NCBI RefSeq assembly: GCF_012999535.1
Contig: NZ_JABBWV010000001.1
Span: forward strand, 496,001-560,000
Length of the DNA: 64,000 nucleotides
Direction of reading: 5' to 3'
From: Microbispora sp. H11081
GTDB lineage: Bacteria > Actinomycetota > Actinomycetes > Streptosporangiales > Streptosporangiaceae
The notes below the pieces were generated by a model, which did not search any database, had not been told where the DNA came from, and worked only from the letters and a program-made list of their open reading frames with translations. The first letter of the stretch is position 1; every line of letters begins with the position of its first letter. The translations under genes and the position numbers were made by a program. Positions 14,894-24,831 of this stretch are shown here, piece after piece.

Positions 14894-16450
14894 ATGCTTG
14901 TACATATCTCCAAATACCCTGCTGTCGTGCTGTTGCGAGATCTGCTCGCCGCCCAGGAACTGCGGCTTGTCCTGCTCACCGGTGACGATCGGCTGGACCG
15001 CGAGGTCACGTGCGCGCTCGTCACCGACCTGCCCGATCCCCGGCGTTACCTGTCGGGCGGCGAGCTGGTGCTGACCGGCCTGATGTGGCGCGGGTCGCCC
15101 GCCGACTCCGCCCGGTTCGTGAAGGCCCTGGCCGAGGCGGGCGTGGCCGCGCTCGGCGCCGGTGACGCGCGGCTCGGCATGGTGCCCGACGACCTCGTGG
15201 ACGCCTGCCGGGCGCACGGGCTGCCGCTGTTCGAAGTGCCGGTCGAGGTGTCGTTCGGGGCGGTCACCGAGCTCGTCGGCAGGCGCGTCGCGGCCGCGCA
15301 GGCCGGCGACCTGCGCGGCGCGCTCGGCCGGCACCGCAGGATCGTGGCGGCCGTGGCCGAGGGTGTCGGGCTCCGCGAGCTGTTCGCCCTGGTCGAGGCC
15401 GAGCTCGGCGTCACCGCCGCCGTCGTGTCCGCCTGCGGCACGGTCGTCGCGGGCGCGCTGCCCGAGGACCGGGCCGTACGGCTGGCGCGCGACTACCTGG
15501 CCGCCGTCCGCCTGCCCGTCGTCGTGGACCGCGGCGGGCCGTACACGGTGTTCGCCGTGGACCGCTCGCACCGGGCCGCGGGCTGGGCCCTGGTCTGCCG
15601 GGGCGAGGTGGACGCGGAGATCGGCTACGAGCTCGCGGCGTGCGTCGCGATGGCGCGGACGCGGGCCGAGGAGGGCCGCCGGGTAGAGCGCAGGCTGGCC
15701 GAGCAGCTCATCGCGCTGGCGTGCGCGGGCGGCGACATCGCCGAGCTGTCGGCCCGGCTGCGGACCTGCGGCATCGACCCGGCCGAGCCGTACGCCGTGG
15801 TGACGGTCACGGCGAGCAGGCGCGGGGCGACGGACGGCCCCGACCCCGCCCTGCTGGGCGGGCAGGTGACGGAGGAACTGCTGGACCGCCGCGTGGTGGC
15901 CGCCGCGGGCGCCGACGCGTCGGTGGCGCTGGTCCCGCTGCGCGCCGGCACCCCCTGGAGCGACCGTGACACGCTCGCGGCGCTGCTGCGCGCCCGTACG
16001 GCGGTGCTCGCGCGCGGGCTGGCCGGGATCCGGGTGTCGGCCGGGCTGAGCGGCGCGCTGACCGGGCCGCAGGCCATCCGGGGCGGGGTGGAGGAGGCGG
16101 GCCACGCCCGGCGGATGGCCGAGGCGCGCGGCGGGGGAGTGGTCACCGGCGACGAGATCTACACGCACGCGCTGCTGCTGGCGACCGTGCCCGGCGACGT
16201 CCGCTCGTCGTTCGCCGGGCGGCTGCTCGGGCCGCTGTTCGACTACGACCGGCGGCACGGCGCGGAACTGGTGCGCACGCTCGGCGAGTTCCTCGACTGC
16301 ACCGGGTCGTGGAACGTCTGCGCGGAACGGCTGCACGTCCACGTCAACACCGTGCGCTACCGGATCAGGCGGGTCGAGGAGCTGACCGGCAGGGACCTGT
16401 CGTCCATGGCCGACCGGGTCGACCTGTTCCTCGCCCTGCGCGCCGGCTAG
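14894..16450 (+). CDS. PucR family transcriptional regulator
   Basis: A 518-residue cytoplasmic regulator. The N-terminal PucR domain (about residues 10-130) includes TDLPDPRRYLSGGELVLTG. A central GGDEF-like/GAF-like region follows, and the C-terminal HTH_30 domain begins TLGEFLDCTGSWNVCAERLH and ends NTVRYRIRRVEELTGRDL. PucR of Bacillus controls purine degradation. Its position divergent to a molybdenum hydroxylase gene fits local control of that gene. The ATG at 14894 follows GGGAGGGG. The stop shares a CTAG tetranucleotide with the stop of the SARP gene on the other strand. Confidence 0.93.
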   Translation: MLVHISKYPAVVLLRDLLAAQELRLVLLTGDDRLDREVTCALVTDLPDPRRYLSGGELVLTGLMWRGSPADSARFVKALAEAGVAALGAGDARLGMVPDDLVDACRAHGLPLFEVPVEVSFGAVTELVGRRVAAAQAGDLRGALGRHRRIVAAVAEGVGLRELFALVEAELGVTAAVVSACGTVVAGALPEDRAVRLARDYLAAVRLPVVVDRGGPYTVFAVDRSHRAAGWALVCRGEVDAEIGYELAACVAMARTRAEEGRRVERRLAEQLIALACAGGDIAELSARLRTCGIDPAEPYAVVTVTASRRGATDGPDPALLGGQVTEELLDRRVVAAAGADASVALVPLRAGTPWSDRDTLAALLRARTAVLARGLAGIRVSAGLSGALTGPQAIRGGVEEAGHARRMAEARGGGVVTGDEIYTHALLLATVPGDVRSSFAGRLLGPLFDYDRRHGAELVRTLGEFLDCTGSWNVCAERLHVHVNTVRYRIRRVEELTGRDLSSMADRVDLFLALRAG

Positions 16451-19371
16451 CCGCCCCGGGCGATGCGGTCGCCCGCGGCCGGCCGGCCGTCTCCGGCGGC
16501 GTGCCCGCCGTCGAGCAGGGCCAGCTCCTCGCGTGCGAAGCCCGCCCAGTGCGCCGCGCCGTGTCTCTCCGCGGCGGCCAGGGTCTCGCCGAGGTAGGCG
16601 CGTGCCCTGTCGAAGGAGCCGATGAGCCGTTCCGCGCGCCCCAGCCGGCCCAGGCACTCCACGTCCATGCCGCGGTTGTGCCCTTCCCGGCTCAGGGCGA
16701 GTGCCTTCCGGTAGACGACCGCCGCGGACCAGGGGTCGTCCTGCTTCTCGTGCACCTGGGCCAGGCCGAGCAGCGCGTCCACCATGTGCGTATGGTCTCC
16801 AGCCTGCTTGGCGAGCCTGCCGACTTCGCGCCACGCCGCCCTGGCCTCCGCGACGCGGCCGAGCCCGAGCCGGGCCTCGCCGATGCCGAGGAGGGCGTGC
16901 CGTTCGCCCACCGCCGACGCGATGTTCCTGGCGATGTGGAGTTGCTCGTAGCCGGATGCCAGGGCTTCCTCGTGCCGGTGCAGCGCGTTGAGCGTCACGG
17001 TGAGGTTGCCCAGCGCCCGCATGCGCGCGAAGGACTCCCCCGCGGTGCGGCGGAGGTGCACCTCGGCGCGCTGGTGCCCGAGCGCCTCCTCGTAGCGCCC
17101 CGCGTTGCCGAGGCCCAGGGCGAGGTATCCGCTCGCGAGGGCGGAGATCTCGCGGTCGCCGAGCCGGGCGCCCACCTCCAGCGCCTGACGGCCGAGGGTC
17201 ACGACGTCCTCGTGGTGTCCGATGAACGTGAAGGGCCATTGGCAGGAGAAGCCGAGGTGCGCGCCCGAGCGTGCGAGGGAGTGGTTGTGCGACGCCATCG
17301 CCTGGGCCGCCACGGCGAGGATGTTGCGGTGTTCGCGCTCCAGCCACGCGGACGCGCTCTCGGCGTCCGCCAGGGCGAACGGTTCGCGGTCCGCGAACTC
17401 GTGGGGTGGATGCACCCGATGCGGGTCGAGCAGCCGCATGGCCAGGCGGACGCTCGACCCGTACAGGCCGAGCACGCGGTCGAGCGCGTCGTCGCGGTCG
17501 CGCTCGTCCAGGTGCCGCCCGGCCAGCTCCACGGCGAAGAGCCTGACCAGGTCGTGGAGGCGGAACCGGTCCTGCTCGCCCGGTTCGGCCAGATTCGCCC
17601 GGATCAGGCGGGCCACGGCTCGCTCGGCCACGTCCAGGGGCAGGTCGACGAGCGCCGCCACGACAACGGGGGTCGCGTCCGGCACCCGCAGGACGCCCAG
17701 ATGACACAGGGCCGCGGCCGCCTGCCGGTCGAGCTCGTGCCCGCCTTCCGCCAGCGAGTCGTGGCTGAGCTGGAGGCTGGCCCGCACCGCGAGGTCACCC
17801 GACTCGAGCTCGTGCAGCGCCCGCCGTTCGTCGCGCAGCCGGGAGTTGAGATCGGACACAGGTGTGCGGCGGTTCTCCGACAGCCGCGCCGCCGCGAGGC
17901 GGAGGGCGAGGGGCAGCCCTCCGCAGAGGTCCACGAGCTCGGCGGCGGCGGCCGGATCGGCGGCGACCCGCTCGGCGCCGACGAGTTTCGCCAGCATGGT
18001 CGTCGCCTCCGACCGTTGCATCCTGGGCAGGACGAGCTGGACGCAGTCGTCGGCCGCCGCGAACGACTCCCGGCTCGTGACGAGCAGGGCGTTGCCCGCC
18101 GGCAGGCCCAGCAGAGGGCGGACCTGTTCCGGGCCGGCCGCGTCGTCCAGCACGATCAGCGTCTGCCGGCCCGCCAGGCGGTCCCTGAGCATCGCCGCGG
18201 CCTCGTCCGGGTCGGACGGGACCGCCTCCGGGCGCGTGCCGAGGCCGCGAAGCAGCCTCCCGAGCAGGTCGAGCGGGTTCAGCCGCCGCACTCCTGGCGT
18301 CGCCCCGAGCAGGTTCAGGAACAGCTGGCCGTCGGGGTAGTGATCGCTCACCATGTGGGCGGCGCGTACGGCGAGGGTCGACTTCCCCGCTCCCGGCGTG
18401 CCGGTGACGGCCACCATCGCCGGCGGGTCGCCTCCGTCCCAGGGCGCGAGCAGCGCGCGCAGGCGCACCAGCGGGTCCGTACGCCCCACGAAGACCCGCG
18501 GATCGCGCGGGAGCTGACGCGGCCGGTGGACCTCGTCGGGCGCGGAGACCGTCGCGGGGGACGGCGACGCGTCGAGAGAGGGGTCCGCGCACAGGATGAG
18601 CTCGTACGCCTTCCGCAGGGGCTCGCCGGGATCGACGCCGAGCTGTTCCGCGAGCCGGCGCCTGGCGTCGTGGAAGACCTCCAGCGCCTCCGCCTGCCGT
18701 CCGCGGCGGTAGAGCGCGAGCATCAGCAACTCCCGGGCCCGCTCCCGCAGCGGGGCCTCCGCGGTCAGCCCGACGAGCACGTCGAGCGGCTCCTGGCTCC
18801 GGCCCAGCCGCAGCAGCGCGTCGGCCTGGTCCTCCCGCGCCGTCAGCCGCATGCCCTCCAGCCGGGCCCGTTCCGCTTCGCAGAAGGGGCCGGGAACGCC
18901 GCCGAGGGCGGTGCCCGCCCACAGTCCCAGCGCGGCCTCCAGTTCGCGCAGCCAGCCGCCGAGATCCTCCTTGGCCTGGTAGCGGCGAGCCTCCGCGAGG
19001 CGCCGCTCGAACTCCTCCGCGTCGGTCAGGCACGCGTCCCGTGCCAGGCTGTAGCCGCTCGCGGAGTGGGTGAGCAGCCTGAACGGCCCCCGCCTGCCCT
19101 GATCCGGTTCGAGCAGCCGTCGCAGCCCGGCCACATAGGTGTAGACACTCTGCTCGGCCGTCCTCGGGGCGGCGCCGCCCCACAGATCGCCGATCAGCCG
19201 TTCCTTGGGGACGATCCTGCCGACTTTGGCGGCGAGCACGCACAGGGTCGCGCGCTGGAGCGGAGGTCCGAGGTCGACGCTCCGCCCGTCGCGCCACGCC
19301 GCCAGAGGCCCGAGCATCCGCAGACGGCAGGGCGAGTACGCGGACGTTTCAGGCTCATTCGCGCTATCCAT
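16447..19371 (-). CDS. SARP/AfsR-type regulator: wHTH-BTAD-NB-ARC-TPR
   Basis: A 974-residue regulator with the AfsR domain order. The winged-helix DNA-binding domain is at residues ~15-105, the BTAD domain at ~112-260, and an NB-ARC ATPase follows with Walker A GTPGAGKS at ~324-331 and a Walker B-like LIVLDDAAG. A TPR-rich C-terminus runs from about residue 600. AfsR-type proteins act as pleiotropic activators of secondary metabolism, integrating kinase or nucleotide signals. The ATG at 19371 starts the conserved wHTH. No biosynthetic cluster lies next to it in this window, so its targets are probably elsewhere. Its long upstream region carries a dyad at 19601-19617. Confidence 0.92.
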   Translation of the reverse strand: MDSANEPETSAYSPCRLRMLGPLAAWRDGRSVDLGPPLQRATLCVLAAKVGRIVPKERLIGDLWGGAAPRTAEQSVYTYVAGLRRLLEPDQGRRGPFRLLTHSASGYSLARDACLTDAEEFERRLAEARRYQAKEDLGGWLRELEAALGLWAGTALGGVPGPFCEAERARLEGMRLTAREDQADALLRLGRSQEPLDVLVGLTAEAPLRERARELLMLALYRRGRQAEALEVFHDARRRLAEQLGVDPGEPLRKAYELILCADPSLDASPSPATVSAPDEVHRPRQLPRDPRVFVGRTDPLVRLRALLAPWDGGDPPAMVAVTGTPGAGKSTLAVRAAHMVSDHYPDGQLFLNLLGATPGVRRLNPLDLLGRLLRGLGTRPEAVPSDPDEAAAMLRDRLAGRQTLIVLDDAAGPEQVRPLLGLPAGNALLVTSRESFAAADDCVQLVLPRMQRSEATTMLAKLVGAERVAADPAAAAELVDLCGGLPLALRLAAARLSENRRTPVSDLNSRLRDERRALHELESGDLAVRASLQLSHDSLAEGGHELDRQAAAALCHLGVLRVPDATPVVVAALVDLPLDVAERAVARLIRANLAEPGEQDRFRLHDLVRLFAVELAGRHLDERDRDDALDRVLGLYGSSVRLAMRLLDPHRVHPPHEFADREPFALADAESASAWLEREHRNILAVAAQAMASHNHSLARSGAHLGFSCQWPFTFIGHHEDVVTLGRQALEVGARLGDREISALASGYLALGLGNAGRYEEALGHQRAEVHLRRTAGESFARMRALGNLTVTLNALHRHEEALASGYEQLHIARNIASAVGERHALLGIGEARLGLGRVAEARAAWREVGRLAKQAGDHTHMVDALLGLAQVHEKQDDPWSAAVVYRKALALSREGHNRGMDVECLGRLGRAERLIGSFDRARAYLGETLAAAERHGAAHWAGFAREELALLDGGHAAGDGRPAAGDRIARGG

Positions 19372-19600
19372 GCCTCTGAACTCCACGTGGTAACGGCGTA
19401 GACGCAATCCGTGGGTCATCGCGTTCGAGGAGAATTCCACTCCCGTGCCCGATGCGTGCCGTGAGCTGCCGCGCTCGTCGCAACTGCACCCCGGCGGTTC
19501 CCCCCATAAACTGCGGCTTCGCGATGGCGTCCCGTGTTCGTCCGGCATCGGGCATGCCGTCGGGCGTGTTCCGGCAGAGCATGAAATATGCCATGTCCCA

Positions 19601-19617: not shown

Positions 19618-20511
19618 CGCATCGGGTAACGGCCCGTTCCTGTCGGGCCGGAATTTCCTACTTGTCGGTAAGCCTTCCTGACGCATCGTTTGACCTGCCC
19701 GAACACCCCTGGTGTCCGGAGGGTCGCGGGTCGCGCCGCGGGAGACCGGGCGCCGGGGCGCGCGGTGGCATCGGCCGGCGCGTCCCAGCCGGAGAGCGCT
19801 CCCACCGCGCCGCTCGCCTCGGTAAGGCGTTGATGACCTGCACGGTTGCCGGCCGGCCTGTCGTTTGCCGAGGTAGCGGCCTCGGGGATGGGCGTCGCCG
19901 GCCCGAGGGGTGTGGGCGGTCGGGCGGCCAACGCGGTCCATGACCGATCCGCCGGACGGTCCCGTCCGCCCGATGCCCGCGCGCGAGGGCGGATCCGCGC
20001 CGGCCGCGTCGAAGCCGTGCCCGCGGCCGTCTCCGGATAGTTCGCCGGAGGCGGCGTCCCGGGGAGGCGGTCTTCTGAGGACGGTGTTCTCGTGGGACGC
20101 GGTTCTTGTGGGGCGCGGTTCTTGTGGGCGCGGTTCTCCTGAGCCCGCGGCGGCGAATCGGGACACGGCGGGGCGGCTCGCTCTCTGTGCGACCGGGCGT
20201 GTCTTCGGGGCCGCTTTTCTCGCTCGCGCGATTTCCATGCGGCCTTTCGTGCTATCCGGCCGGGCGGCTCGCGGACGGGTTGTTCGAATTTCCGCTCGGC
20301 TCGCCATATTCGCCTTTTTCGATTATTCGAGAATGCGGCCGGCCGGTCCGCCTTTCGCGGCGGAAAGATGCGATGTCGTTTTTGGGGGTGTTCCCGCGCC
20401 GCCTCCTGCCGGAGATCACGGCCCGGGACGGCAGCCCGGACGCGAGCGGAGCCCGGCGAGGACCCCCGCCGATCCTGGTCCGTCGCCGTCCCAGGCCGGC
20501 TGAGTGGACAC

Positions 20512-20547
20512 TCCGTCCCCGGTGGCGTCGTGACCTCCGGGGACGGA
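20512..20547 (-). terminator. Terminator-like hairpin after the micro-peptide gene
   Basis: An 11-bp perfect stem (TCCGTCCCCGG and its complement) with a 14-nt loop, beginning 29 bp beyond the peptide stop codon on the minus strand. No U-tract, as usual in high-G+C genomes. It would give the peptide gene its own transcript of roughly 200-250 nt. Confidence 0.6.
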
Positions 20548-20576
20548 CTGTCCCGCTCTCACCAGCGCGTACTCGT

Positions 20577-20726
20577 TCAGCAGCAGCCGTTGTCGAACGA
20601 GAAGAGCTGCACTGAAGACGACGGGGCGGCACTGTTGGACGTGGCACTGTTGGCCGTAGCATTGCCACCAACGGTCACAAGGGCCAAAATCAGGGCGGTA
20701 AGAAGATACGAGGCTGGGCGGCGCAC
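20577..20726 (-). CDS. Secreted 49-residue peptide ending NGCC; candidate pheromone precursor
   Basis: A small gene too short for routine gene calling. It starts at a GTG at 20724-20726 with GGGAG seven bases upstream and stops at TGA 20577-20579. The N-terminus has two Arg and then a hydrophobic core (YLLTALILALVTVG, residues 7-20). A Sec-type cleavage site (NATA or ATAN region, about residue 25) follows, then a Ser/Asn/Ala/Thr-rich linker, and the last residues are SVQLFSFDNGCC. This is the layout of exported pheromone precursors such as PapR or Phr: signal, linker, short C-terminal message. It is divergent from an HTH-TPR regulator only 55 bp away and has its own hairpin. The Cys-Cys end could alternatively point to a disulfide, lipidated or otherwise modified peptide. 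Function is inferred only from layout. Confidence 0.6.
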   Translation of the reverse strand: MRRPASYLLTALILALVTVGGNATANSATSNSAAPSSSVQLFSFDNGCC

Positions 20727-20740
20727 GGTGGATCTCCCAT

Positions 20741-20778
20741 CAACTCGGACTGCCAGGCCTCCAATATTTCAGGAGTTG
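20741..20778. promoter_or_regulatory. Inverted repeat in the shared peptide/regulator control region
   Basis: CAACTC (20741-20746) and GAGTTG (20773-20778) are perfect 6-bp arms 26 bp apart, filling most of the 55-bp gap between the two divergent starts. The right arm overlaps the ribosome-binding site AGGAG of the regulator gene. Between the arms lie AGGCCT and AATATT palindromes. It is a candidate autoregulatory operator. With such short arms, chance cannot be ruled out. Confidence 0.3.
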
Positions 20779-20781
20779 CCA

Positions 20782-22074
20782 ATGACTGCGCAAGATCTGG
20801 TGGGACAGCGCATCAAGTCGATACGGCGGCAGCGCGGGCTCTCACAGGCGCAGTTGGCGCATCCTGAACTTTCCGACAGTTACGTATCACTGATCGAGAG
20901 CGGCAAGAGGACACCGACACCGGCAGTTCTCGAACTCCTCGCCCAGAAGCTCGACTGCTCGCTCACCTACCTCGTCAACGGCGTGACGGCCGAGCAGATG
21001 GAGGACCTGGAGGTCGGCCTCAGCTTCGCGTGGATGGCCATCGAGAACGGCGAGGTCGCCGAGGCCCGCCGCAGGTACGCCGAACTCCTCGCGGACAGCA
21101 ACCTGCAGGGCCTCGCCACGCTGCGGGTGGAGGCCCGTTACGGGTACGCCCTGGCTCTGGAGGCCTGCGGCGAGCTCGACGAGGCGATCTCGGTGCTCGA
21201 CGAGCTCAACGGCTCCGAGGCCGAGGCGATGCCGCAGGAGCGCAAGATCGCCGTGGCGCTGGCGCTGTGCCGGTGCCACCGTGAGCGGGGCGACTTCTCC
21301 GCCGCCGTGCGCGTGGGCGAGCGGGCGCTCGCCACCTACGCGCGCAACGGCTGGACCGACGAGCTGGTCGAGCTCGGCGCCACCCTGCTCACCGCGTACA
21401 TGGTGCGCGGCGACCTGCTGCGCGCGGGCCACTTCGCGAACGAACTGCTGGCGGCCGCCGAGACCCTCGCCACGTCCCGGGCGACGGTGGCGTCGTCCTG
21501 GAACGCGGCACAGGTGCTGGAGAAGAGCGGCAGGGGCGAGGAGGGCATGGCGCTCCTCGAACGAGCGCTCGCCTTCCAGTCCGAGAACGGCGAACCGCGC
21601 AACCTCGCGCGGCTGCGCCAGGCCTACGCCTCGATGCTGCTGCGGGTGCGCCCCGAGGAGGCCGAGCGGGCACGCGACCTGCTCCTGCGGGCGCAGCGGG
21701 AGCACGAGGCCTCCGCCACCAGCGCCTTCGACCGGGCGCGGACCGCCTGCGTCCTCGCCTGGGCCGAGCTCGTCCTCGACCGCCCGGACAAGGCCGTCGA
21801 CTATCTCAGGGACGCGCTGGCGCAGGTCGAGCACACCGGGAGCGGGCTCCTCGCCGGCGCCAACCTCCTGATCGGCCAGGCGTACTTCCTGCTCCACCAG
21901 GACGGGGACGCGGCTGCGGCGCTCGACCTGGTCACCGGCTGGCTGGAGGACGCGCCGCGGACCCTGAAGGCCGCCGAGGACTGGATGAACGTGGCGGAGA
22001 TGCGGCGGCGCCTCGGCGACGACGAGCAGAGCGTCACGGCCTACCAGCGCGCGCTCGCCTGCGCCGGGCTGTAG
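20782..22074 (+). CDS. XRE-family HTH regulator with TPR domain (RRNPP-like)
   Basis: A 430-residue cytoplasmic regulator. Residues ~8-62 form an XRE/Cro helix-turn-helix (IKSIRRQRGLSQAQLA, then SYVSLIESGKRTPTPAVLEL). From ~70 to the end the chain is all-helical with about eight or nine TPR-like pairs, for example EAICYLRDA-type helices seen as KAVDYLRDALAQVEHTGSG and EDWMNVAEMRRRLGDDEQSV. Length and order match NprR (HTH plus nine TPRs) and are longer than PlcR. In that family the TPR groove binds a re-imported peptide. The start follows AGGAG at good spacing. The gene ends in a strong hairpin at 22082-22115, so it is a single-gene transcript. I know HTH-TPR proteins of this kind are common in actinobacteria, mostly uncharacterised. 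The linked peptide gene is what makes this one notable. Confidence 0.85.
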   Translation: MTAQDLVGQRIKSIRRQRGLSQAQLAHPELSDSYVSLIESGKRTPTPAVLELLAQKLDCSLTYLVNGVTAEQMEDLEVGLSFAWMAIENGEVAEARRRYAELLADSNLQGLATLRVEARYGYALALEACGELDEAISVLDELNGSEAEAMPQERKIAVALALCRCHRERGDFSAAVRVGERALATYARNGWTDELVELGATLLTAYMVRGDLLRAGHFANELLAAAETLATSRATVASSWNAAQVLEKSGRGEEGMALLERALAFQSENGEPRNLARLRQAYASMLLRVRPEEAERARDLLLRAQREHEASATSAFDRARTACVLAWAELVLDRPDKAVDYLRDALAQVEHTGSGLLAGANLLIGQAYFLLHQDGDAAAALDLVTGWLEDAPRTLKAAEDWMNVAEMRRRLGDDEQSVTAYQRALACAGL

Positions 22075-22081
22075 TCGCGAG

Positions 22082-22115
22082 GGCGCCCGCCCCGCGACCG
22101 GAGCGGGCGGGCGCC
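22082..22115 (+). terminator. Terminator hairpin after HTH-TPR gene
   Basis: GGCGCCCGCCC pairs perfectly over 11 bp with GGGCGGGCGCC across a 12-nt loop, 8 bp after the stop codon. It isolates the regulator from the copper genes downstream. Confidence 0.7.
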
Positions 22116-22219
22116 ACCGGCACCCGCCCGCGGCCCCGGGCTTCCCTTGATCCGTGATCGTGCGGTACCCGTGGTCTGGGGTACGGACCGGAGCCCGGCG
22201 TCGGTAGCCTGGGAGTGCC

Positions 22220-22840
22220 ATGAAGAGACCCTTCCTCGCCGCCTTCGCCGCGCTCGTGGCGGCTCTCCTGCTGTGTGCCGCGCCGGTTCTGCCCGCCCAG
22301 GCGCACACCTCGCTCAAGAGCAGCGATCCGCAGAAGAACGCCCAGCTGGAGACCTTGCGCAAGGTCACGCTCGAATTCGCGGAGTCCGTTAAGTTCCCGG
22401 TCGTGGTCGTCCGCGGTGAGGACGGCACGCGCTACGAGAACGGCGCGCCGGCCGTGGACGGGCCCAAGGTCAGCCAGGCGGTGACCGAGCCGGTGCCGCC
22501 GGGCCGCTACACGGTCGCCTGGCGGGTGGTCTCGCCCGACGGGCACCCGCTGGAGGGGGAGATCCCGTTCACGGTGACCGGCGGCCAGTCCCTGGGCACG
22601 GCGACGTCGGCCGCCGCCGCAGGGGAGTCCACCTCAGAGGAGCCGGCCGCGGGGGAGTCGGCATCGGCTGAGTCCGCGGCGGCCTCGCCGGTCGCGACGG
22701 AGCAGGCCGCGCAGGCGGCGCAGGCCGAGGAGGCCGACAGCGCCGGACGGCGGGGCGTGCCCGGCTGGATGTGGGCCGTGATCTTCGGGATCGCCGGCGT
22801 CGGCATCGGGATGTTCCTGAGCCTGCGGAAGAAGCCGTGA
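22220..22840 (+). CDS. CopC-domain copper-binding protein
   Basis: A 206-residue exported protein. A signal peptide of 28 residues ends AQA, leaving His29 as the mature N-terminus (HTSLKSSDP), the first Cu ligand of CopC. The second histidine ligand lies in SPDGHPLEGEI near residue 120. An Ala/Glu/Ser-rich linker follows and a C-terminal transmembrane helix (MWAVIFGIAGVGIGMFL), so the domain is tethered outside the membrane. It would hand copper to the CopD-like protein encoded next, with which it overlaps by GTGA. Confidence 0.92.
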   Translation: MKRPFLAAFAALVAALLLCAAPVLPAQAHTSLKSSDPQKNAQLETLRKVTLEFAESVKFPVVVVRGEDGTRYENGAPAVDGPKVSQAVTEPVPPGRYTVAWRVVSPDGHPLEGEIPFTVTGGQSLGTATSAAAAGESTSEEPAAGESASAESAAASPVATEQAAQAAQAEEADSAGRRGVPGWMWAVIFGIAGVGIGMFLSLRKKP

Positions 22841-24831
22841 ACAGGGCGGTGCGCCTGACCGCCGCGGCGCTCTGCGCGGCCGTCGGCGCACTCGTCGTCG
22901 CCATGGTGCTCGGTGGCGCCGCGACGCCGCGGATCATCCCCGGCCTGCCCGACGAGGGCACCCTCACCCGCTGGATGCTCCCGCTGTCGAAGCTCGCGAT
23001 GGACGTCTCCGGCGTCCTGACCGTCGGGCTGCTCGCCGCGGCCTCGGCGTTCCTGCCCAGCGACAAGGGCCTGCTCGGCAAACCCGCGCAGGGTTACGTG
23101 AAGGCCGCCTCGTGGTCCGCGCTGGTCTGGGCGGTGGCCGCGGCGGTCGCGCTGGTCTTCAGCCTGTCGGAGACGCTCGGCATGCCGGTGGGGCAGGTAC
23201 TCGCGGGCAACGAGCTCACCAGCTACGCCAGTCAGGTGCCGCAGGGCATCGCGCTGACCCTGGTCGTGCTGTTCGCCGTCGCCATCGCGTTGTTCGCCCG
23301 CGGCGCGATCACCGTGGGCGCCGCGGCCGGCCTGCTGGTCTTCGCGCTCGTGACGCTGCTGCCGCCCGCGCTCACCGGGCACTCCTCCTCCTCGCCCAAC
23401 CACGGGCTGGCCACCACCTCGGTCGCCATGCACCTGCTCTTCCTGGCGCTGTGGGTGGGCGGACTCGGGATGATCTGCTTCCACGCGCTGCGCGGGCAGC
23501 CGCTCCTGGACGTCGCCGCCGCGCGCTTCTCCCGGATGGCGCTGTGGTGCTTCGTGGGGGTCGGCGTCTCCGGGCTCGCCGCCACCGCCTCGCGTCTCAC
23601 CTCGGTCGGCGAGCTGTTCACCTCGAACTACGGCCTGCTCCTGCTGGCCAAGATCATCGCTTTCGTGGTGCTCGGGTTCTTCGGCTGGCGCCACCGCGGC
23701 CGTACGCTGCCTCGGCTGTCGGCGGGGGAGCCGCACGCCTTCCTCCGCCTCGCCCTCGGCGAGGTCGTGCTGATGGGGGCGACGATCGGCCTCGCCGTGG
23801 CGCTGTCCCGGACCGCCCCGCCGCCCGTCGACACCCCGGTGGACCGTGCGTTCGAGCTGCTCGGCTATCTCCTGCCGCCGCCGATCTCGCTCGTCAACCT
23901 GGTGACGTTGTGGTGGTTCGACCTGTTCTTCGCCGTGCTCGCCGCCGCCCTGGCCGGTCTGTACGGCGCGGGGGTCGTCCGGATGGCCCGCAGGGGAGAC
24001 CGGTGGCCCGCCGGCCGCACGGTGAGCTGGTTCCTCGGCGTGGTCATCCTCGTGCTCAGCACGCAGACCGGTGTGGCGCGCTACGCGCCGGTGCTGTTCA
24101 GCGTGCACATGACCGAGCACATGGTCCTGTCGATGCTGGTCCCGATCTTCCTGGTGCTCGGCGCGCCGGTGACGCTGGCGCTGCGCGCGCTCAAGCCCGC
24201 CGTCCGCAGGGGCGACCGGGGGCCACGCGAGTGGATCATGGTGATTCTGCACAGCAGGGTCGTGAGGTTCGTCAGCCACCCCGCGATCGCGACGGCGATC
24301 TTCGTGGTGTCGACGTTCGCCCTGTACTTCACCCCGCTGTTCGCCGCCGCGATGGAGGAGCACCTCGGTCACATCGCGATGACCGTGCACTTCCTGCTCA
24401 GCGGCTCCCTGTTCTTCTGGGTGATCATCGGGGTGGACCCCGCGCCGTACAAGCTGCCCTACTACGGGCGGTTGCTGCTGCTGATGGTGACCATGCCGTT
24501 CCACGCGTTCTTCGGGCTCGCCCTGATGAGCATGGGCACCGTGCTGGCGTCGTCCTACTACGACCAGCTCGGGCGCACCTGGGGCGCGTCCTCCCTGGCC
24601 GACCAGCAGTCCGGCGGCGCGATCGCCTGGGCGTTCGGTGAGATCCCCACGCTGATCGTGCTGCTCGCTCTGGGGTTCCAGTGGTGGCGGGACGACGAGC
24701 GGGTCGCGCGCCGGGCGGACCGCCGCGCCGACGCCGCCGCGGCCAGGTCCGGCGGCACCGGGGACGCGGAGCTCGACGCCTACAACGACTATCTGGCGAA
24801 GCTCAACAAGCGGGACACGGCCGCCGAGTAG
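22837..24831 (+). CDS. CopD-CtaG fusion: copper import / cytochrome oxidase assembly membrane protein
   Basis: A 664-residue polytopic membrane protein starting at a GTG overlapping the copC stop. The N-terminal half (to about residue 330) is CopD-like, with helices containing HSSSSPNHGLATTSVAMHL and several conserved His. The C-terminal half is a CtaG (caa3 oxidase assembly) domain with SVHMTEHMVLSMLVPIFLVL, EEHLGHIAMTVHFLLSGS and MPFHAFFGLALMSM. The fusion places copper uptake and copper delivery to cytochrome oxidase in one chain, which is frequent in actinobacteria. The last ~50 residues are a charged cytoplasmic tail. Confidence 0.92.
   Translation: MNRAVRLTAAALCAAVGALVVAMVLGGAATPRIIPGLPDEGTLTRWMLPLSKLAMDVSGVLTVGLLAAASAFLPSDKGLLGKPAQGYVKAASWSALVWAVAAAVALVFSLSETLGMPVGQVLAGNELTSYASQVPQGIALTLVVLFAVAIALFARGAITVGAAAGLLVFALVTLLPPALTGHSSSSPNHGLATTSVAMHLLFLALWVGGLGMICFHALRGQPLLDVAAARFSRMALWCFVGVGVSGLAATASRLTSVGELFTSNYGLLLLAKIIAFVVLGFFGWRHRGRTLPRLSAGEPHAFLRLALGEVVLMGATIGLAVALSRTAPPPVDTPVDRAFELLGYLLPPPISLVNLVTLWWFDLFFAVLAAALAGLYGAGVVRMARRGDRWPAGRTVSWFLGVVILVLSTQTGVARYAPVLFSVHMTEHMVLSMLVPIFLVLGAPVTLALRALKPAVRRGDRGPREWIMVILHSRVVRFVSHPAIATAIFVVSTFALYFTPLFAAAMEEHLGHIAMTVHFLLSGSLFFWVIIGVDPAPYKLPYYGRLLLLMVTMPFHAFFGLALMSMGTVLASSYYDQLGRTWGASSLADQQSGGAIAWAFGEIPTLIVLLALGFQWWRDDERVARRADRRADAAAARSGGTGDAELDAYNDYLAKLNKRDTAAE

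Follow-up and report, generated by a model that had tools for sequence, protein, structure and literature searches.

Signalling of the RRNPP type has been regarded as belonging to Bacillota and to the plasmids and phages of these bacteria: in their accessible portions, one source places the surveyed systems in Firmicutes and viruses (PMC10075063), a second confines its survey to Firmicutes (PMC9765709) and a third surveys Bacillota (PMC12700828). For actinobacteria, the available sections of PMC10075063 and PMC4748050 describe gamma-butyrolactone or small-molecule signalling as usual. The latter, which reviewed quorum sensing in actinobacteria in 2016, also notes peptides that are cyclic or modified, and its available sections name no pair of an HTH-TPR regulator and a propeptide. 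No actinobacterial pair of this kind was found among the matches listed in the open literature, preprints and subscription papers lying outside the scope of that search.

Here we describe a gene pair of Microbispora sp. H11081 that resembles the RRNPP systems. The window, by which we mean the whole stretch of 64,000 nucleotides that was analysed, had been predicted to hold an RRNPP-like quorum-sensing module: a 49-codon ORF that has a ribosome-binding site, begins like a signal peptide and ends in Cys-Cys, lying 55 bp from the gene of a 430-residue HTH-TPR regulator. This arrangement was confirmed, and its features are as follows.

20512 to 20547, no strand assigned: hairpin 3' of the peptide gene (fold of 20505-20555, -40 kcal/mol, z -5.6)
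20577 to 20726, minus strand: peptide gene (propeptide of 49 aa, GTG start, Cys-Cys-stop end), from the ORF listing and the recurrence of Cys-Cys ORFs at homologous loci
20580 to 20585, minus strand: terminal Cys-Cys
20586 to 20612, minus strand: hypervariable core ahead of Cys-Cys, residues 39-47, from pN/pS and 10-mer diversity
20643 to 20726, minus strand: leader, residues 1-28, with an RR start, a hydrophobic stretch and a region holding NATA and A-x-A, from hydropathy and motif
20727 to 20781, no strand assigned: divergent intergenic region, 55 bp between the start codons, holding both ribosome-binding sites
20782 to 22074, plus strand: regulator gene, 430 aa, with an XRE-type HTH and nine TPRs
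20782 to 20979, plus strand: HTH domain, residues 1-66, almost invariant (Pfam HTH_3 1.8e-11; mean entropy 0.30)
20989 to 22062, plus strand: nine TPR pairs, residues 70-427, from the AlphaFold2 model
21370 to 21504, plus strand: TPR4A-TPR5A, residues 197-241, putative peptide-end pocket (E197, T201, R233, V236, A237, N241), from a comparison of CC-type, W-type and genus g38 regulators
22082 to 22115, no strand assigned: hairpin 3' of the regulator gene (fold of 22076-22122, -34.6 kcal/mol, z -3.4)

The GTG start of the peptide ORF is preceded by GGGAG, and its C-terminal end is SVQLFSFDNGCC; the regulator starts with ATG behind AGGAG. Between close relatives, the intergenic DNA shows strong conservation. 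In the nearest named relative, Microbispora sp. H13382 (locus L003), whose regulator is 92% identical, the frame is kept and the peptide is six residues shorter. A promoter scan returned a single weak match, on the plus strand at 20662-20690 within the peptide gene. The original prediction had also given each gene a hairpin of its own. Both folds are stable, but a scan for T-tailed terminators called neither hairpin (20505-20555, 22076-22122); 'terminator-like' is a fair description of these putative terminators. Beyond the peptide gene lies a large minus-strand ORF (about 16447-19400) that by eye reads like a SARP/AfsR-type regulator, and loci L003-L014 have a tblastn match to it on the same side.

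Pfam HTH_3 and TPR families match the regulator, and an AlphaFold2 model (114 rows; pLDDT 91.4, pTM 0.80) places nine TPR pairs after an HTH. Across Pfam, NCBIfam, PADLOC and PHROGs, the regulator gave only HTH- or TPR-type or weak partial matches, and the peptide gave no family match. When the model was compared with known structures by VIA-align, apo NprR (5dbk) reached Z 26.3 with 6.0 Å over 349 aligned residues at 15% identity, Rap with its peptide (4gyo) Z 25.7 and NprR-NprX (4gpk) Z 23.1; APPBP2 scored above NprR, and LGN was level with it. In a profile search of the PDB, PlcR matched at 2.4e-13 over residues 4-190, covering HTH and TPR together, and NprR at 3.9e-10, while designed TPR proteins outranked PlcR. 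TPR folds are generic, and TPR proteins outside RRNPP score equally or higher; the modelled fold is thus compatible with kinship to NprR and Rap and supports it, which falls short of proof.

Regulator homologues were searched at the level of the family (297 genomes, 197 with a match at 1e-30), the order (345 genomes, 238 with a match at 1e-40, largely the same genomes as in the family set) and the class (394 genomes, 48 with a match at 1e-45). We examined 156 loci, namely the best matches and a hand-picked diverse set among the matches listed; the window itself (L001) and L004, which shares a contig with L003, are excluded from this number. At 119 of the 156 loci we found a divergent signal-peptide-like ORF ending in Cys-Cys (CC type). 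A further 18 loci, all of one clade, carry an ORF with the same leader and mostly a W-x-x-P end (W type; 17 found by script and L131 by reading), and 6 have a convergent downstream ORF containing CC (L049, L053, L054, L071, L138, L140). The remaining 13 have no peptide (L002, L043, L044, L045, L058, L074, L076, L100b, L139, L142, L146, L149, L151), L058 and L074 having less than 300 bp of upstream DNA. The pairing of peptide and regulator is far above chance: CC-type ORFs were present at 119 of 154 loci, whereas 3080 dinucleotide shuffles of the DNA upstream of these loci produced 0, and any signal-peptide-like divergent ORF was present at 135 of 154 loci versus 96 of 3080 shuffles (L001, L004 and, with under 350 bp upstream, L058 and L074 were omitted from this control).

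Divergent CC peptides occur in our strain's own family, Streptosporangiaceae, and in families f11, f21, f22 and f29, and convergent ones in f16 and f28, so that the pair is found in seven families of one class, Actinomycetes. The divergent CC peptide of Nonomuraea gerenzanensis, for example, ends in TGDAGCC. L049, L053 and L071 (f28) and L054 (f16) have no upstream peptide and carry a CC-ending ORF downstream in convergent orientation, which indicates that the gene pair survives rearrangement; the ORF of L071 runs off the end of the available DNA, its leader lying outside the sequence seen. A strict downstream scan, covering up to 450 nt (median 300 available), recovered 3 of 155 loci (L049, L053, L054) versus 0 of 1550 shuffles. 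Gene neighbours outside the own family differ from those within it and from each other, which marks the pair itself as the conserved unit. At L138 and L140, which carry paralogous regulators of genus g6, the convergent signal-peptide-like ORF ends in GGGLCCYE and lies on the minus strand about 1560 nt after the regulator start; regulator residues 240-241 there differ from those of the CC clade.

A midpoint-rooted tree of 133 regulators, built by a quick method, accommodates the four labels with 13 changes, where shuffles take 37.2. The W type is nested inside the CC type in this tree, so Cys-Cys is probably the older state and the W type derived. The W clade is essentially a single evolutionary event. 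The Cys-Cys end is thus not universal, one clade having replaced it with the W type.

Regulators with no visible peptide partner are common. At regulator identities of at least 49%, a line drawn after the data had been seen, 108 loci comprise 87 with divergent CC peptides, 18 with divergent W-type peptides, 2 with convergent ones and 1 with none. The large genus g38, whose regulators are 43-46% identical, is represented among the 156 loci by L045 only. When the locus DNA of 24 g38 genomes was scanned (24 best and 6 secondary loci, L045 included), 0 of 30 loci had a CC or divergent signal-peptide-like ORF. A plasmid search matched 16 records, and six homologues besides Nonomuraea were examined, one from Streptosporangium and five from Streptomyces; a CC peptide was detected near 0 of the 6. 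The expectation that homologous regulators are accompanied by a small divergent ORF therefore stood for close homologues at the above identity and gave a mixed result for more distant ones: CC peptides recur in other families, but g38 and the five Streptomyces plasmids yielded none. These five regulators, encoded on linear plasmids (L189-L193), are HTH-TPR proteins about 31-36% identical to ours, with no CC peptide detected nearby. A search of viral contigs returned no relative. The sole phage-labelled homologue found, L194 (MT836207.1), is an HTH-TPR regulator with 34.5% identity; its contig is of human faecal origin, carries no annotation and is labelled bacteriophage.

Own-family peptides, again at identities of at least 49%, follow a common plan of an Arg/Lys start, a hydrophobic stretch, a variable region and the end. 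The leader holds an N-x-T/M motif in 91 of these 104 peptides, and 102 of the 104 have a loose A-x-A pattern. Judged by hydropathy and motif, the leader is signal peptide-like and the peptide is probably secreted. The residues before CC vary nearly species by species, with 81 distinct C-terminal 10-mers among 87 CC peptides. In 43 close pairs that are not independent of one another, pN/pS reaches 0.74 for the peptide core and 0.54 for the leader, compared with 0.22 for the TPRs and 0.01 for the HTH (residues 1-75). The closest regulator pairs (L120/L122, L028/L077, L030/L031, L087/L089) have identical peptide ends, which together with the pN/pS of the leader bears out the predicted conservation of the peptide frame among relatives. 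In the W clade, 16 of the 17 script-found peptides have W-x-x-P/A within their last nine residues, the exception being L040. The propeptide of L131, encoded upstream of the regulator, contains four spaced copies of GWNGPD, and that of L112 two related copies.

These data also bear on whether the small ORF is the by-product of a conserved regulatory leader or RNA element, with no functional peptide. Such an element would fit the high conservation of the intergenic DNA and a synonymous divergence that is lower in the leader (0.131) than in the core (0.293), HTH (0.215) and TPR (0.204) codons. However, the frame, the hydrophobic start and the Cys-Cys-stop recur across families with different gaps and in convergent orientation, and the frame is preserved in the W clade, where GWNGPD units are repeated. 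We consider this explanation very improbable.

We then asked whether receptor and peptide change together. An all-pairs distance test on 81 receptors gave no covariation signal (groove versus other positions, p 0.55). The distance matrices were replaced by disjoint close pairs (27, then 29). Among the 29 pairs, concave groove positions of TPR4-6, numbered by the TPR canon, change more where the peptide core differs (coefficient 0.159 versus an entropy-matched mean of 0.054, p 0.03; permutation p 0.0005), this set having been picked after its entropy was known as one of seven sets tried. The same test on these pairs showed no effect in the TPR1-3 groove, the TPR7-9 groove or the outer helix-B positions, and gave p 0.68 for the groove set over all nine TPRs and p 0.16 for TPR3-7.

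The peptide end was compared with the receptor in a similar way. Seven of the 150 positions with a fixation of 90% or more in the CC clade drop to at most 35% in the W clade: G179, E197, T201, R233, V236, A237 and N241. Six of the seven are on helices 4A/5A (hypergeometric 5.7e-6, for a region named after the list had been seen). Across 120 CC regulators from all families, the window included, A237 and W240 are each found in 120, T201 in 117 and N241 in 112. In the W clade, Leu replaces A237 in 16 of 18 regulators and W240 is kept. For the 24 best g38 regulators, with the positions fixed beforehand, T201 has become Ala and N241 Glu in 23 each, and A237 is kept in 8. Glu at 241 is also found in 6 of 119 CC regulators, the GPRVHCC group included; seven peptide-less loci (L043, L044, L076, L142, L146, L149, L151) keep T201 or Ser; and among four aligned Streptomyces homologues T201 is present in three, N241 in four and A237 in one, three of them keeping both T201 and N241. 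Receptor changes follow peptide changes and are clustered on helices 4A/5A, the contrast between CC and W clades representing essentially one evolutionary event. In g38, the missing peptide and the lost pocket residues pull in opposite directions on the pheromone reading. The g38 regulators (L205-L227, L045), which have no visible peptide and have lost T201 and N241, may be orphan receptors, or their peptide may be encoded elsewhere.

The genes that follow the regulator, at 22220 to 24831 on the plus strand, we take by eye to be copC and a YcnJ-like copD. This order is kept immediately after the regulator in 40 distinct loci of the own family (L001, L003, L005-L042), and by synteny copC/copD may be a further target of the regulator. 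Small secreted peptides containing Cys are often effectors, and Cys-Cys could bind copper. The peptide might then be a secreted effector (antimicrobial, toxin or metal-binding) whose expression the regulator controls without binding it. However, counting loci with enough downstream DNA, copC/copD are absent from the own-family loci L043, L044, L099 and L100 and from 11 non-family loci (L046-L056), and L045 has copD alone; the 11 non-family loci together with L099 and L100, which are extra or tandem copies, mostly have CC peptides. A copper-linked function was rejected on the ground of this missing synteny and is kept as a rival. If the regulator did not bind the peptide, two patterns would also be left unexplained: the helix 4A/5A changes that accompany an altered or absent peptide end, and the groove changes that track the peptide core. 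A fixed end behind a hypervariable core is unlike a metal chelator, and visual inspection of the ORFs flanking seven loci turned up no enzyme that would modify a peptide. In comparison with toxin-antitoxin and RiPP systems, we note that the peptide has no known family match and that the layout is divergent, the neighbour check by eye covering seven loci. An effector that the regulator does not sense appears unlikely.

Together, the recurrent pairing, the conserved frame, the hypervariable core and the clustered receptor changes support the RRNPP-like quorum-sensing reading, and we regard it as likely that the pair is a peptide-pheromone/receptor module of a separate actinobacterial lineage, operating in the manner of Bacillota RRNPP systems. 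We propose the following model. The propeptide would be exported via its signal peptide, trimmed to a short C-terminal peptide ending in Cys-Cys and taken up again, probably by an oligopeptide ABC importer. The host genome encodes 18 SBP_bac_5 oligopeptide-binding proteins, none of them linked to this locus, which makes uptake possible. Inside the cell, the peptide would bind the concave groove of TPR4-6, where T201, A237, W240, N241 and N274 may recognise the backbone and constant end of the peptide, and the hypervariable groove residues 204, 207, 208, 244, 248, 280 and 284 may read the core, resulting in a species-specific dialect. Binding would alter the action of the HTH on the shared 55-bp divergent promoter region and thus allow self-control.

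In the whole genome, the intergenic 19-mer has no second good site (the other 10 of 11 matches have 3 mismatches; the reversed control gave 22), which leaves the pair as its own clearest predicted target. A family-wide operator was rejected, as the scan of own-family loci found no 6-bp inverted repeat common to over 9 of them. Loci of family f21 (e.g. L051) carry GGACT-N20-AGTCC between the genes, exact in 10 of 20 and with at most one mismatch per arm in 8 more, and this inverted repeat is a candidate operator.

A variant of the pheromone reading is that the same cell exports and senses the peptide as a timing or export checkpoint. It draws on the same sequence evidence, its probability overlaps with that of the pheromone reading, and a leader-anchored small protein is also possible. 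However, near-identical regulators share a peptide and distant ones diverge fast in core and groove, as if the signals of neighbours were being told apart, and we rate cell-autonomous use as possible but on balance unlikely. As a more speculative extension, which we think rather unlikely, Cys-Cys could be redox-gated: oxidised outside, as a vicinal disulfide or dimer, and reduced once back inside the cell, the T201/A237/N241 pocket accepting only peptide that has been re-imported. The pair would then be an ancient class-wide language of Actinomycetes, in which one clade swapped the end to W-x-x-P together with a matching pocket and another lost both.

On the pheromone reading, the pairs form a widespread, though not universal, putative peptide-signalling family of Actinomycetes that is apparently undescribed. 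Given its recurrence in many actinobacteria, the pairing probably represents bacterial cell-to-cell signalling of a kind not described so far. Actinobacteria are known for antibiotics. The family spans Microbispora, Nonomuraea and relatives as well as other families and, if the reading is true, would offer a gene-encoded, synthesisable signal with which one might try to switch development or the production of metabolites. Some 80 natural signal variants with their receptors would also lend themselves to the study of how specificity evolves.

The closest likeness is to NprR/NprX and PlcR/PapR. As in those systems, a receptor of NprR size with HTH and TPRs is encoded next to a small propeptide gene, and the propeptide combines a secretion leader, here recognised by hydropathy and motif, with a variable C-terminal signal. 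NprR is close in structure (Z 26.3), and PlcR is the best RRNPP match in sequence. NprR/NprX and PlcR/PapR belong to Bacillota, whereas the present pair belongs to Actinomycetes and is divergent (convergent in f16 and f28); unlike in those systems, most signals end in Cys-Cys, and identity to NprR 5dbk is 15%. With Rap/Phr and AimR/AimP the pair shares a multi-TPR receptor, here putatively peptide-binding, beside a gene for a secreted propeptide. Rap lacks an HTH DNA-binding domain, unlike the present regulator, and AimR belongs to phages. The four GWNGPD copies of L131 and the two units of L112 resemble the duplicated pheromones of RRNPPA propeptides, tandem duplications being described in the accessible part of PMC11343458 for the propeptides of two phage Rap systems.

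Among the hallmarks of RRNPP or RRNPPA systems, Pfam and the AlphaFold2 model show C-terminal TPRs behind an N-terminal HTH. An adjacent propeptide gene is present in the window and is divergent at 137 of the 156 loci and convergent at 6 more. Hydropathy, the K/R start, A-x-A and the hypervariable core point to a secretion signal followed by a variable C-terminal signal. On these sequence and model data, the pair appears to work like an RRNPP(A) system, and we stop short of calling it a proven one. Compared with gamma-butyrolactone systems, in which the signal is a small molecule, it would rely on a gene-encoded peptide and the proposed HTH-TPR receptor.
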